DNA of 64,000 bases from an uncultured Prevotellaceae bacterium (lineage in GTDB: Bacteria; Bacteroidota; Bacteroidia; Bacteroidales; Bacteroidaceae), in NCBI GenBank assembly GCA_945865175.1, contig CAMBDA010000002.1, forward strand, positions 1 to 64,000, in the 5' to 3' direction. Position 1 is the stretch's first letter. Each line of letters begins with the position of its first letter. Both the position numbers and the translations under genes were made by a program. Below, one piece after another: positions 20,628 to 44,091 of the stretch. The notes beneath the pieces were generated by a model that saw nothing but the letters and a program-made list of their open reading frames with translations, ran no database searches and was not told the DNA's origin.

Positions 20628-21974
20628 CTACTCCAGTGCACGAAGGGTGAACACAAACTCCAGTCCTCCTGCAGACACCTGGCGCACCATGATGGTACCG
20701 TGGTGAAACAGGACAGCATTTTTGACAATGGCCAGACCCAGTCCGGTGCCGCCGATGCGGCGACTGCGCCCCTTGTCCACACGATAGAAGCGTTCAAACA
20801 GGTGGGGCAGATGGTCCGCAGGCACCCCCACGCCATTGTCGCTGAAGGTGAAATGCCAACAGCCCTCCGAGGGACCCTGACACTGAAGGCTCACGCGAGT
20901 ACCTATGCCTGCATAGGCGATGCTGTTGTCCAGCAGGTTGCGGAAGATGCTGTAGAGCAGTCCTTCGTTGCCCATGAGCGGAATCTCGGGCGGGAGGTCG
21001 GGCGAGAGTGTCATCTGACGCTGGGCAGCGGCCAGTTTGGACTCCCCGAACACGTTCTCTATCAGGGGGCGCAGGTCAATGCAGGCACAGGGCAGCTGCT
21101 CGGGTGCCTCGTCGATGCGGTTGAGGGTGTTGATGTCGCGGAGGATGTTGGTGAGGCGGAGCGTCTGCACATGGCAGCGCTGCAGAAACTGGCGCAGGTG
21201 TGACTCGTCAAGGTCGGGATTCTGCAGGATGGTCTCCACATAGCCCTGGATGCTGGCCACAGGGGTCTTCAGTTCATGGCTCATATTGAGGGTGAGCTGC
21301 CGCTTCAGGCGTGCGTTCTCCTGCTCCTGCACCCGGCGCACCATCTGGTCGAGCAGGCGCGCCTGGCGGTAGGACACCAGGGTAAGCACCAACGCCACAC
21401 ACACCGAGAACCATACAAAGCCGCGGTCGCCACTGAGGCTGTGTATGAGCTGCACGTTATAGGGAAGGGCTGTGCGCACCACCATGCCCTGGTCCGGAAA
21501 ACTGCTGGCCACATAGAAATAGTCCTCGCCCATGGTTTCCGAATTGCGGCGCAGGATGAAGCCCGTGCCCTCGCGGAGGGCCTGCTGTATCTCAGGGCGT
21601 TGCAGGTGGTTGGGAAGCCTGTCGGCCTGAGGCTCCATGTTGTCGCTCAGCACATGGCCCAGGGTGTCGAGCACCGTCACACGCAGGTTGCGCAGGTGGG
21701 AGTTCTTCTCGCTGGTCTCAATGATACCGCGCAGCAGACTGTCTCCCCGATTTGCCATGAGGGCCATCTCCTCGTTGAGCTGCAGGAGTTGAGTGGTGAG
21801 CAGTCTCACCTTGAACTCGCGCTCGCGCTGTCCCTGATAGTACACAAAACAGCCCACAAACACCCACAACAGCACCGTGACACTCAGGAACAGGCGCATG
21901 CCCAGCCATTCATCGGCAGGGAACAGTCGGCACCGCAGCACAGCGCGCTCAATCCATCTGAAAACAGTATCCAT
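20628..21974 (-). CDS. PhoR-like sensor histidine kinase
   Basis: A 448-aa membrane kinase. Two transmembrane segments (about 27-46 and 185-201) bracket a periplasmic domain of about 135 residues. The HisKA H-box is NMSHELKTP with the phospho-acceptor H233, and the HATPase domain shows NLLDNSI (N-box), DNGVGV (G1), FERFYRVDKGR (F-box) and GGTGLGLAIV (G2). The start at 21974 overlaps the response-regulator gene by 26 bases; a longer frame would add only ten residues inside the regulator gene. Because the cassette faces a PiT phosphate transporter, a PhoR-like phosphate-sensing role is likely, though Bacteroidetes have many similar kinases. Confidence 0.88.
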   Translation of the reverse strand: MDTVFRWIERAVLRCRLFPADEWLGMRLFLSVTVLLWVFVGCFVYYQGQREREFKVRLLTTQLLQLNEEMALMANRGDSLLRGIIETSEKNSHLRNLRVTVLDTLGHVLSDNMEPQADRLPNHLQRPEIQQALREGTGFILRRNSETMGEDYFYVASSFPDQGMVVRTALPYNVQLIHSLSGDRGFVWFSVCVALVLTLVSYRQARLLDQMVRRVQEQENARLKRQLTLNMSHELKTPVASIQGYVETILQNPDLDESHLRQFLQRCHVQTLRLTNILRDINTLNRIDEAPEQLPCACIDLRPLIENVFGESKLAAAQRQMTLSPDLPPEIPLMGNEGLLYSIFRNLLDNSIAYAGIGTRVSLQCQGPSEGCWHFTFSDNGVGVPADHLPHLFERFYRVDKGRSRRIGGTGLGLAIVKNAVLFHHGTIMVRQVSAGGLEFVFTLRALE

Positions 21975-22641
21975 AACCTTGACGGGTGATGATGCGGGAA
22001 CCATACTGTGCCAGTTTCTTGCGCAGACGGGTGATGTTCACGTCTACGGTACGGTCGAGCACATAGGCATCGTCGTGCCACACGAGCGACAGAATCTCGC
22101 TGCGGCTGAACACGCGCCCCTTTCCCTGGATGAGCAAGGCCAGTATCTCAAACTCGGTCTTGGTGAGCTGAATGGGCTGCAGGTCGATGGTAGCCGCCTT
22201 GCGCATGATGTCGAGCTGGAGGCCCTTGTAGCCCACATAGTCGGGACGCGTGAGCGCAGGTGCATTGCTTCTGCGCAGCACGGCTGTAACCCTGAGCACC
22301 ACTTCCCTGATGCTGAAAGGCTTGGAGATGTAGTCGTCGGCTCCCAGGGAGAGTCCTGTCACGGTATCGTTCTCCGTATCGCGCGCGGTAAGGAAGATGA
22401 TGGGCAGCTGGGCCGTCTCGGGTCGTGCCCGCAGACGCTTGGCCATGGTGAAGCCGCTCACCTCGCCCATCATCACGTCGAGCAACACCAGGTCATAGGT
22501 GGTGAGGTCGGTCTGCATGGCCTCTTCGGCGCTGTAGGCCACATCCACCATATAGCCTTCGTTCTCCAGATTGAACCTGAGTATCTCACAGAGGTCCTCT
22601 TCATCGTCGACCACAAGCAGTCGCATGTTCTTGAATTCCAT
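21949..22641 (-). CDS. PhoB-like OmpR-family response regulator
   Basis: A 230-aa DNA-binding response regulator. The receiver domain has acidic residues D12/D13, phospho-acceptor D55 in LLDVMMGEVSG, the conserved threonine in FLTARD and the lysine in ISKPF. A winged-helix effector domain (about 130-230) ends in RLRKKLAQYG...TRQGYGYCF, typical of the OmpR/PhoB class. It is transcribed from a TAACTTTG promoter, overlaps the kinase gene by 26 bases, and is divergent from the PiT transporter gene, whose promoter holds 11-nt-period direct repeats fitting a PhoB dimer array. The role in phosphate control is inferred. Confidence 0.9.
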   Translation of the reverse strand: MEFKNMRLLVVDDEEDLCEILRFNLENEGYMVDVAYSAEEAMQTDLTTYDLVLLDVMMGEVSGFTMAKRLRARPETAQLPIIFLTARDTENDTVTGLSLGADDYISKPFSIREVVLRVTAVLRRSNAPALTRPDYVGYKGLQLDIMRKAATIDLQPIQLTKTEFEILALLIQGKGRVFSRSEILSLVWHDDAYVLDRTVDVNITRLRKKLAQYGSRIITRQGYGYCFQMD

Positions 22642-22673: not shown

Positions 22674-22681
22674 CAAAGTTA
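22674..22681 (-). promoter_or_regulatory. -7 box of the response regulator-kinase operon
   Basis: TAACTTTG on the minus strand, about 33 bases before the ATG at 22641. It faces away from the PiT promoter within a 185-base divergent region. No convincing -33 element is seen. Confidence 0.6.
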
Positions 22682-22738
22682 CGCATTTTCCCTCATTTTT
22701 TCCACGTTCGGCCTGTTAAAAATACATGCTAGGGCACA

Positions 22739-22796
22739 TTGTAACACGATTGAAACATTTTCTTCATTATGGCTTAACAACTACTGGGTAATTTTG
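22739..22796 (+). promoter_or_regulatory. Pho-box-like direct repeats plus -7 box of the PiT gene
   Basis: TTGTAACACGA (22739-22749) and TTGAAACATTT (22750-22760) are direct repeats with an exact 11-base period. Two weaker units in the same register (22761-22771, and 22772-22782 with TTAACA) bring the array to 6 bases before the -7 box TAATTTTG (22789-22796). The array replaces a normal -33 element, as PhoB sites do at activated promoters. The same type of repeat precedes the porin gene at 42684-42705. Confidence 0.6.
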
Positions 22797-22826: not shown

Positions 22827-25055
22827 ATGTATCTGTGCCTGATTTGTTTCCTATTCATGCTTGCCATCTTCGACCTGTGGGTGGGAGTGAGCAACGACGC
22901 TGTCAACTTCCTTAATTCCGCGATAGGCGCCCGCGTGTCACGTTTCCGCAACATCCTGATTGTAGCCTCGGTGGGCGTGTTTGTGGGAGCCACACTGAGC
23001 AACGGCATGATGGACATCGCCCGCCACGGCATCTTCCAGCCGGCGATGTTCTCGTTCGAAGAGCTGTTCTGCATCTTTCTAGCCGTGATGGTGACCGATG
23101 TGGTGCTGCTGGACGTGTTCAACTCGCTGGGCATGCCCACGAGCACCACCGTGTCGCTGGTATTCGAACTGCTGGGAGGCACCTTCATCCTGGCACTGCT
23201 GAAGATTGCGGGCGACAGTTCGCTCGACCTGGGACAACTGCTCAATACGGAGAAGGCGCTCAGCGTCATCATGGGCATCTTCCTGAGCGTGGCCGTAGCC
23301 TTTGTGTGCGGCTCGATAGTGCAATGGGTGAGCCGCCTGCTGCTCACCTTCAATTACCGTCCGCGCCTGAAGTACAGCATCGGCGTGTTCGGTGGCATCG
23401 CCTTCACCACCATTGCCTACTTCATCATTGTGAAGGGGCTGAAGGGAAGCCCTGCGTTGCCCGCTGCTTTCAGCGAGTGGCTGTCGGCCAACAACAGCCT
23501 GTTCCTGCTATGCCTGCTGGCAGGCAGCACGCTCTTCATGCAGCTGCTCCACTGGATGGGAGTCAATGTGTTCCGCATCATCATCTTCATGGGCACCTTT
23601 GCCCTGGCCATGGCATTTGCCAGCAACGACCTGGTAAACTTCGTGGGTGTGCCGCTGGCCGCGCTGAGCAGCTACCAGTACTTCTCCGTCGCACCCGGTG
23701 CAGACCCCTCTACCTTCATGATGGGTGCGCTCAACGAGAGTGCGCGCACGCCCTTCATTTTCCTGCTGCTGGCAGGACTGGTGATGGTGGTGTCGCTGGC
23801 CACCAGCAAGAAGGCACACAATGTGGTGAAGACGAGCATCGACCTGAGCCGTCAAGAGGAGGGCGAAGAGATGTTTGGCAGCAGCGCCATGGCAAGGAGC
23901 ATCGTGCGCGGAGCCAACCATATGGGACGTGCGCTGCACACCATACTGCCCGAATGTTTCTTCCGCTGGCTCGACAAACGATTCAACAAGGAGGAGGCCA
24001 TCATGGCCGAAGGGGCTGCCTTTGACCTGGTGCGCGCCTCGGTCAACCTGGTGCTGGCCGCCCTGCTCATCATCATGGGCACCAGCCTGAGACTGCCGCT
24101 GAGCACCACCTATGTCACCTTCATCGTGGCCATGGGCACCAGTCTGGCCGACCGTGCCTGGACACGCGAAAGCGCGGTCTTCCGCATCACTGGCGTCCTC
24201 AATGTCATCGGCGGATGGTTCATCACGGCGGGCGTGGCATTCTCCTGTGCAGCTTTCGTGACGGTGTGCATGTACTTTGGCAGCCTGCCAGCCAGCATCT
24301 TCTTTATCGGGCTGGCCGTATATATCCTCATGCGCAGCAACCTGCTGGGCAGCAAGAAGAAGGCCGACGACGAATGTGACACCATCTTCCGCCAGTTGCT
24401 GGCCGCCAAGGACACACGGCAGCGATGGGAACTGCTGAGCCGACATGTGGCCCTTACACAAGAGATGCTGCTGGGCGAAATCCTCCGGTACTACCATAGC
24501 GTAGCACAGGGATTCACAGATGAAAACCTTTCACTCCTGCGCCACACCGTGCGCGACATCAGCCAGATGAAGCCACGCCTCAAGAAAGCACGACAGCGCG
24601 AAATGCTAGGTCTGCGCAAGGTAGATGACAGCATTTCGCTCAAGAAGAGTACCTGGTTCCATCTGGGATTCAACAGCGGCGAGCAGATGTACTACGGCCT
24701 GCGCCGTATGGCCGAACCCTGCCTGGAGCATGTGGACAACAACTTCAGTCCCCTGCCCGACGAACAACTTCAGGAACTGCAGCGAGTGGCGCAGCAGGTG
24801 GAAGGCTACCTCAACCGCTCACAGGTAATCCTCCGCAGCCACATGATGGAGCAGGTGGACGCGCTCACCACCGAGATGGATGCCTATACGATGGAACTCT
24901 CCCAGCTGCGGAAGAGGCAGATAGATATCCTATCGAGCGACCGCCAAAAAGGGCTCAGAGTACAGTTTGTATACCTGAATGTGCTGCAGGAAAGCCAGCA
25001 ATTGCTCAGCGAACTGCGTCATTTCATGCGTGCATACAAGAATTTTCAACAATAA
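22827..25055 (+). CDS. PiT-family inorganic phosphate transporter (long form)
   Basis: A 742-aa inner-membrane transporter. The two PiT signature copies are present near the start of each half: GVSNDAVNFLNSAIGARVS (residues about 16-34) and AFASNDLVNFVGVPLAA (about 266-282). Ten or more hydrophobic helices extend to about residue 505. The last 230 residues are soluble, charged and helical (coiled-coil-like), a long tail seen in Bacteroidetes PiT proteins, perhaps a PhoU-like regulatory part. It moves phosphate with H+ or Na+. The upstream region has Pho-box-like repeats, and the neighbouring divergent operon encodes a PhoBR-like pair. Confidence 0.92.
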   Translation: MYLCLICFLFMLAIFDLWVGVSNDAVNFLNSAIGARVSRFRNILIVASVGVFVGATLSNGMMDIARHGIFQPAMFSFEELFCIFLAVMVTDVVLLDVFNSLGMPTSTTVSLVFELLGGTFILALLKIAGDSSLDLGQLLNTEKALSVIMGIFLSVAVAFVCGSIVQWVSRLLLTFNYRPRLKYSIGVFGGIAFTTIAYFIIVKGLKGSPALPAAFSEWLSANNSLFLLCLLAGSTLFMQLLHWMGVNVFRIIIFMGTFALAMAFASNDLVNFVGVPLAALSSYQYFSVAPGADPSTFMMGALNESARTPFIFLLLAGLVMVVSLATSKKAHNVVKTSIDLSRQEEGEEMFGSSAMARSIVRGANHMGRALHTILPECFFRWLDKRFNKEEAIMAEGAAFDLVRASVNLVLAALLIIMGTSLRLPLSTTYVTFIVAMGTSLADRAWTRESAVFRITGVLNVIGGWFITAGVAFSCAAFVTVCMYFGSLPASIFFIGLAVYILMRSNLLGSKKKADDECDTIFRQLLAAKDTRQRWELLSRHVALTQEMLLGEILRYYHSVAQGFTDENLSLLRHTVRDISQMKPRLKKARQREMLGLRKVDDSISLKKSTWFHLGFNSGEQMYYGLRRMAEPCLEHVDNNFSPLPDEQLQELQRVAQQVEGYLNRSQVILRSHMMEQVDALTTEMDAYTMELSQLRKRQIDILSSDRQKGLRVQFVYLNVLQESQQLLSELRHFMRAYKNFQQ

Positions 25056-42683: not shown

Positions 42684-42718
42684 ATGTAATGTGATTGTAA
42701 TAATTTATCCTATTTTTG
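42684..42718 (+). promoter_or_regulatory. Pho-box-like repeats and distal promoter of the porin gene
   Basis: ATGTAATGTGA (42684-42694) and TTGTAATAATT (42695-42705) are direct repeats with an 11-base period, 5 bases before the -7 box TATTTTTG (42711-42718). The pair aligns with the repeats upstream of the PiT gene (17 of 24 bases identical over the core). Confidence 0.55.
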
Positions 42719-42816: not shown

Positions 42817-44091
42817 ATGACTACATTCAGCACTCGATGCCGTATGGCATTTCTGGCAATGGCCATGACCACAACTGCCACCTGCGTGGCACAAGCGAAC
42901 AATCAGACAAAGGAAAACAAGAAATGGGAGAACCTGATTGAGTCCGAATCGGACGAATTGATGGAACAGCTCATGAACATGCCCTATATCGAGGTGGGAA
43001 AGGGGGTCTCCTTTGCGCCCAAAAACAAACTGTTCAAGATGACACTCAGATTCAGGATGCAGAACCAGGTGACCATGCTCTTTGACGATGACTTCCGTCT
43101 GGAGGAGACCCAGGCACAAGTGAAAAGGCTCCGCCTGCGATTCGACGGATACCTTTATTCACCCAAGCTGCTCTACACCATCCAACTGGGATTCACACCC
43201 TATGATACCAAAACGATACCCAACGGGAACACCAACATCGTGCGGGATGCCATTATCTGCTATATGCCTTCCTCCACATGGAACATCAGCTTTGGCCAGA
43301 CAAAAGTGAAAGCCAACCGCGCGCGCATCAATTCCTCTAGCGCCCTGCAGTTTGTAGACAGGAGCATTGTGAACTCGGAGTTTAATCCCGACCGCGACTT
43401 CGGAGTGTTCGGCGAGTACCACAAGACATGGGACAAGAACCTCAGCCTGGCAGCCAAGGGTTCCGTGACCCTGGGAGAAGGACGAAACTGGGGGACCGAC
43501 AAAAACAAGGGTTTTGCCTACACGACACGGTTGGAACTGTTCCCGCTGGGCCGATTCAAGGGGCTGGGCGAAGTAGTGGAAGGCGACTTCCAGCGCGAGG
43601 AGAAGGTGAAGATGATGCTGGCCGGGGCCTTTACCTACAATGACCGCACCAACCGCACAAGCGGACAAAATGGAAGCCTCATGCCCACGGGCCACGTGCG
43701 CGACCTTAAGCAATACTATATGGACTTTATCCTCAAGTTCCGAGGATTTGCCTTCTACACCGATCTGATGGGACGTGTCTGTGACAGGCCCATAGTGGAT
43801 GAGGAAAACGGCCTGTTCGTATATACGGGAAAGGGTGTGAACGTACAAACGAGCTATCTGTTCAAGAAGAACTGGGAGGTGGCGCTGCGCAACTCCACGC
43901 TGCTGCCCGACAAGGAAGTGGAGCAAATGGCCGGCTACCGCAGATTCAATCAGAGCACACTGGCTGTGACCAAATACCTTATAGGCCACAACCTGAAGGT
44001 GCAGGCAGATGCCTCGTACAACCACCAGGCGCGCCCCACCGACGGATACAACCGGTGGCAACTGCGTTTTGTGGTGGAAGCAGGGCTTTAA
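42817..44091 (+). CDS. OprO/OprP-like phosphate-selective porin family protein
   Basis: A 424-aa outer-membrane barrel with a signal peptide (1-24, cut after CVA). The family pattern of OprO/P porins is visible: a repeated strand-turn pattern, RLRFDGYLYSPKLLYTIQLGF (about 90-112), QFVDRSIVNSEFNPDRDFG (about 168-186) and the C-terminal LRFVVEAGL. The start at 42817 is preferred over 42760 because the proximal -7 box lies inside the longer frame. Bacterial relatives take up phosphate or polyphosphate, and the Pho-box-like repeats upstream support that here. Its stop overlaps the convergent cyclo-ligase stop by four bases. Confidence 0.82.
   Translation: MTTFSTRCRMAFLAMAMTTTATCVAQANNQTKENKKWENLIESESDELMEQLMNMPYIEVGKGVSFAPKNKLFKMTLRFRMQNQVTMLFDDDFRLEETQAQVKRLRLRFDGYLYSPKLLYTIQLGFTPYDTKTIPNGNTNIVRDAIICYMPSSTWNISFGQTKVKANRARINSSSALQFVDRSIVNSEFNPDRDFGVFGEYHKTWDKNLSLAAKGSVTLGEGRNWGTDKNKGFAYTTRLELFPLGRFKGLGEVVEGDFQREEKVKMMLAGAFTYNDRTNRTSGQNGSLMPTGHVRDLKQYYMDFILKFRGFAFYTDLMGRVCDRPIVDEENGLFVYTGKGVNVQTSYLFKKNWEVALRNSTLLPDKEVEQMAGYRRFNQSTLAVTKYLIGHNLKVQADASYNHQARPTDGYNRWQLRFVVEAGL

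Follow-up and report, generated by a model that had tools for sequence, protein, structure and literature searches.

The window, by which we mean the whole 64,000-nucleotide stretch of DNA that was analysed, carries a gene for a PiT-family phosphate transporter and, divergent from it, genes for a PhoB response regulator and a PhoR-like histidine kinase. In the 185-bp intergenic region lies a candidate Pho box made up of four 11-bp units and followed by a −7 box of the Bacteroidetes type. The features are, in order of position:

20628–22004, minus strand: PhoR-like histidine kinase (best model NF053855, Bacteroides PhoR, 479 bits, cut-off 500)
21949–22641, minus strand: PhoB response regulator, divergent (NCBIfam NF053854, Bacteroides PhoB, 345.7 bits against a cut-off of 270)
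22674–22681, minus strand: putative −7 box of the phoB promoter, TAACTTTG (sequence match only)
22739–22749, plus strand: candidate Pho-box unit 1, TTGTAACACGA (consensus TTGTAACA; G, A and A invariant in 52 sites)
22750–22760, plus strand: candidate Pho-box unit 2, TTGAAACATTT (exact 11-bp period; consensus [TA]T[GT]TAA[CT]A)
22761–22771, plus strand: candidate Pho-box unit 3, weak in this window, TCTTCATTATG (can be aligned with TG[TA]CA[TC]A, the consensus for unit 3 in other genomes)
22772–22782, plus strand: candidate Pho-box unit 4, GCTTAACAACT (TAACA in register; consensus TAA[CT]A)
22789–22796, plus strand: −7 box of the PiT promoter, TAATTTTG (fits TAnnTTTG; 50 nt after unit 1)
22827–25055, plus strand: PiT-family phosphate transporter, 742 aa (Pfam PHO4, PF01384, 4.6e-25, 88.8 bits)

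The original prediction had placed a divergent PhoBR-like pair next to the transporter. For the response regulator this holds, as the protein passes the NCBIfam PhoB model. For the kinase, PhoR is indeed the best model but the score stays under its cut-off, and with 458 aa against 583 for the NF053855 profile the protein falls short of full PhoR membership; by position and best match it resembles PhoR. Among solved structures, those nearest to the window PhoB in its DNA-binding domain are of E. coli PhoB (1QQI, 1GXP and 3T72), 1GXP being the protein with DNA and 3T72 the protein with DNA and sigma. Its recognition helix contains DRTVDVNITRLR, the N and T of which are invariant among the Bacteroidales PhoB proteins caught by our search pattern. 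The predicted structure of the transporter fits the PiT fold of 6L85, a sodium-dependent phosphate transporter, with a Z score of 27.6 over 386 residues. In addition, its C-terminus (residues 530–742) is predicted to adopt a PhoU fold (4Q25, Z 20.4, 208 residues aligned, rmsd 2.5), and by sequence no Pfam PhoU match was found in this C-terminal part. A search of the region for E. coli-type sigma-70 promoters, terminators and Rfam RNAs returned none.

The four units run in phase and fill window positions 22739–22782. The direct repeats with an exact 11-base period that had been proposed here are present as TTGTAACACGA and TTGAAACATTT, and the two weaker in-phase units said to follow them are genuine: TAACA in unit 4 is in register with units 1 and 2, and units 3 and 4 each show a position-specific consensus of their own. 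The half-sites TTGTAACA, TTGAAACA and CTTAACA are related to TGTCA or TTAACA, as is the unit-3 consensus TG[TA]CA[TC]A, so that the element has the tandem 11-bp direct repeats and the type of half-site of a Pho box. The proposal that the units abut the −7 box needs amending, since ACTGGG (6 nt) separates unit 4 from TAATTTTG; a box of the TAnnTTTG type does nevertheless stand close by. That the repeats replace the −33 element is borne out, for neither TTTG nor TTG occurs in the expected segment, CTTCATTA.

The best pair score in the intergenic region is 15 out of 16, a value equalled in 5e-5 of 20,000 dinucleotide shuffles, and nowhere else in the 64-kb window, whichever strand is read, does a pair reach 14. 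A weight matrix was derived from 51 sites in other genomes, the window being excluded; by this matrix the complete element scores 55.8 bits and the runner-up among 127,874 positions scores 9.8. When units 3 and 4 are scored alone they reach 10.3 bits and rank 28th, against a training mean of 12.6.

PiT orthologues were gathered from 80 named Bacteroidales loci and from 101 relatives, and the 150 bp preceding the gene were scanned in the 80. A TTGTAACA pair with period 11 and a score of at least 13 was found in 85% of the 80 promoters. The corresponding rates were 0.6% in shuffles and 0.14% in segments drawn at random from these loci, the related sequences in these counts not being independent samples. 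Counted from unit 1, TAnnTTTG lies 50 nt away in 47 of 65 PiT promoters and mostly 39 or 28 nt away in the remainder, which corresponds to one or two units fewer. Altogether 62 of the 65 have an offset of 28, 39, 50 or 61 nt and share one common helical phase; the phase itself is plain, and the kinship of the sequences voids any nominal P for it as a probability. TTTG at −33 is present in none of 51 non-redundant sites, and the repeats in these promoters stand at a fixed distance in place of the upstream promoter hexamer. In the same 51 sites the consensus reads TTGTAACAnnn for unit 1 and [TA]T[GT]TAA[CT]Annn for unit 2, continuing as [AT]TG[TA]CA[TC]Annn, nnnTAA[CT]Annn, 6 nt and TAn[TC]TTTGC. 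The conservation in orthologous promoters that had been suggested as a check is therefore found for the repeats, for the 11-bp phase and for the offset to the −7 box across Bacteroidales PiT promoters.

The window PiT protein is nearer to those of Paraprevotella, Alloprevotella and Caccomonas (59–63%) than to those of its own genus (49–56% for long matches), and PiT is missing from most genomes of that genus. This patchy distribution possibly reflects horizontal transfer or paralogy.

We also searched for the element at other genes. When two units and a −7 box were required at fixed spacing, 16 genomes yielded 61 matches and the reversed control 10; pattern matches with at most two mismatches stand before PiT, phoB and pstS genes and before those of Porin_O_P, the phosphate-selective porins. 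A relaxed 19-nt pattern with three mismatches did not exceed its control in the window's own genome (19 matches against 18), and as informative pattern sites we count only those with at most two mismatches or with the −7 spacing. A near-identical 57-nt sequence with three mismatches to the pattern recurs in several genomes; it is probably part of a mobile element and not a Pho box.

A profile made from 52 sites, the window included, was run over 101 genomes. Its best match in the window's own genome is the PiT site (E 3.5e-10; this site was among those used for training, and the window-free matrix agrees). The second lies before a gene for an NptA Na/Pi cotransporter (E 0.0017) and has a three-unit arrangement with an offset of 39 nt; NptA genes are absent from the training set. 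The top matches in relatives precede NptA, PiT, porin, PstS and phoB genes, those in a class-wide sample precede PiT, phoB, PstS and PhoU_div genes, and Phocaeicola Pst promoters likewise carry boxes. The many weak matches (E above 0.01) are mainly −7-box-like and were disregarded. Taken together, the element occurs at phosphate-regulon genes when viewed across genomes, while in the window's own genome it is limited to the PiT site and the weaker NptA site.

A convincing box was not found at the porin genes of this genome. A weak one, ATGTAATGTGATTGTAATA with a −7-like TATTTTTG, is located at window positions 42684–42718, about 100 bp before the Porin_O_P gene ending at 44091, and is flanked by a GGATAA/TTATCC inverted repeat. 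In three loci with Pst homologues of a second type, no box was found up to 300 bp from either pstS or pstC; because another gene closely precedes pstS there, the promoter of this operon may lie further upstream. Longer arrays were seen as well: the divergent NptA–phoB intergenic region of a same-genus genome (G003:C18:4725-4784) has an extended run of more than four 11-bp units, and a distant genome (G141) has, in several places, TTGTAATACGA-type 11-bp repeat arrays unlike the four-unit element.

We conclude that the element is very probably a Bacteroidales Pho box, that is, two tandem 22-bp PhoB-dimer sites that stand in place of the −33 element and activate PiT under low phosphate. What we observed is the sequence, spacing and conservation of the element, its repeated occurrence before phosphate genes, a PhoB encoded next to it and a geometry shared with the E. 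coli pstS promoter; from these we infer PhoB as the binder, activation as the consequence of binding and phosphate as the signal. Two 11-bp repeats per dimer is the stoichiometry known from E. coli PhoB, and it is because the E. coli pstS promoter shares the geometry that we read the element as activating through two dimer sites. Low phosphate would lead PhoR to phosphorylate PhoB, and PhoB~P dimers would occupy the four head-to-tail 11-bp half-sites on one face of the DNA. Bound PhoB~P would then keep the primary sigma factor in position on TAnnTTTG, the −7 box, replacing the −33 contact, and sigma held there would switch on the transporter.

Within the genus, strong sites track PhoB: they were found in 11 of 17 genomes with the regulator and in 6 of 44 without it (Fisher P 2e-4). 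The association is imperfect on both sides, as six same-genus genomes have strong sites with no PhoB over the cut-off (these are drafts, 61–87% complete) and six others have PhoB with no strong site. The first six would also suit a different reading, in which the repeats are bound by another OmpR-family regulator, one of envelope or ion-transport genes, and not by PhoB. Regulators of this family generally bind direct repeats of about 10–11 bp and several are encoded per genome. However, the genes that carry the element are those for phosphate uptake and phoB itself, the sites follow PhoB within the genus and the pst promoter is bound by PhoB in Bacteroides fragilis, and we regard a different regulator as improbable.

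Slightly less probable still is that the element chiefly serves the divergent phoBR operon, as a site of autoregulation, with PiT a bystander. The element does sit between PiT and phoB, and a phoB located elsewhere carries its own copy. Yet it is the PiT −7 box towards which the units are oriented and from which they keep the fixed 50-nt offset, whereas the putative phoB −7 box (22674–22681) lies 57 bp from the nearer edge of the candidate Pho box and has one half-site only, a lone TTTTAACA at 22721–22714 that begins 40 nt upstream of it. Finally, AT-rich regions commonly hold short repeats, but a chance origin in AT-rich intergenic DNA can be dismissed given how rarely shuffles match the score and given the same spacing kept in dozens of orthologous promoters.

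The PhoU fold at the end of the transporter may bear on how phosphate is sensed. In relatives, phoBR often adjoins PiT, NptA or PstB–PhoU (12 loci); PiT, NptA and Pst(–PhoU) are three unrelated kinds of transporter, and a PhoU domain is also present in some of the NptA proteins of relatives. PstC was not found in the window's own genome, which is about 90% complete, and for this reason we suggest that PhoR may be signalled by the PiT–PhoU fusion. A fuller version, in which PhoR is signalled by the PiT-fused PhoU, PhoB closes the loop by driving the transporter that serves as its sensor, and PiT–PhoU, NptA–PhoU and Pst plus PhoU take one another's place in the phoBR/Pho-box slot of relatives, is a tentative proposal that we think more apt to prove wrong than right. 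PiT, NptA and Pst replace one another under a single operator, and two of the three bear PhoU domains, so that the question of how PhoR could sense phosphate in the absence of PstSCAB becomes amenable to experiment.

Pho boxes, the PhoB protein of Bacteroides and the TTTAACA motif of Riemerella PhoP (PMC9603813) are already known. The literature searched, which takes in only a minority of subscription papers, gave no defined Pho box for the Bacteroidales together with a spacing to the −7 box. In our judgement the Bacteroidales element belongs to an established kind of operator, of which it is a lineage variant. A PhoB regulon is on record for the Bacteroidales, a dominant group of gut bacteria, and the consensus and spacing given here allow the Pho regulon to be predicted in their genomes.

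Three known systems invite comparison. EMSA data for B. fragilis PhoB, which concern the pst promoter alone, show binding there, and pst, the phosphate permease gene BF3715 and a porin O gene are PhoB-dependent (PMC3547664), the same gene classes as those under the element described here. Searching that paper's main text by terms revealed no motif or consensus. Expression of BF3715 drops 52-fold without phoB and does not rise on phosphate limitation in the wild type (PMC3547664). Since the permease gene is not induced in the wild type, PhoB could provide basal activation more than strong induction, and the response of PiT to phosphate may be modest.

In Riemerella anatipestifer, of the same phylum, DAP-seq of the PhoB/PhoP-type regulator PhoP gave the motif TTTAACA, reported as resembling that of E. 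coli ArcA (PMC9603813). The core is near to the units found here; in contrast, a phosphate-regulon architecture and a spacing to the −7 box are not described in the portion of that report we draw on.

The third system is the tandem Pho-box pair of the E. coli pstS promoter, which in our genome collection reads CTGTCATAAAA CTGTCATATTC CTTACATATAA CTGTCACCTGT TTGTCC TATTTT, or four units, 6 nt and a sigma box. The half-site there is TGTCATA, in contrast to TGTAACA in units 1 and 2 of the Bacteroidales element, although unit 3 of the latter keeps TG[TA]CA[TC]A. The recognition helix of E. coli PhoB likewise differs, with DRTVDVHIRRLR in place of DRTVDVNITRLR, the sigma box here is the Bacteroidetes −7 box TAnnTTTG, and the gene downstream is PiT and not pst. 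Both promoters nevertheless have 4 × 11 bp, 6 nt and a sigma box, and in both unit 3 is weak. The original prediction had drawn on the way PhoB dimers bind activated promoters in other phyla; the 4 × 11 + 6 + −10 geometry of pstS is identical to that of the element. That the two promoters share this geometry although sigma factor and −7 box differ suggests an old and rigid contact between PhoB and sigma.
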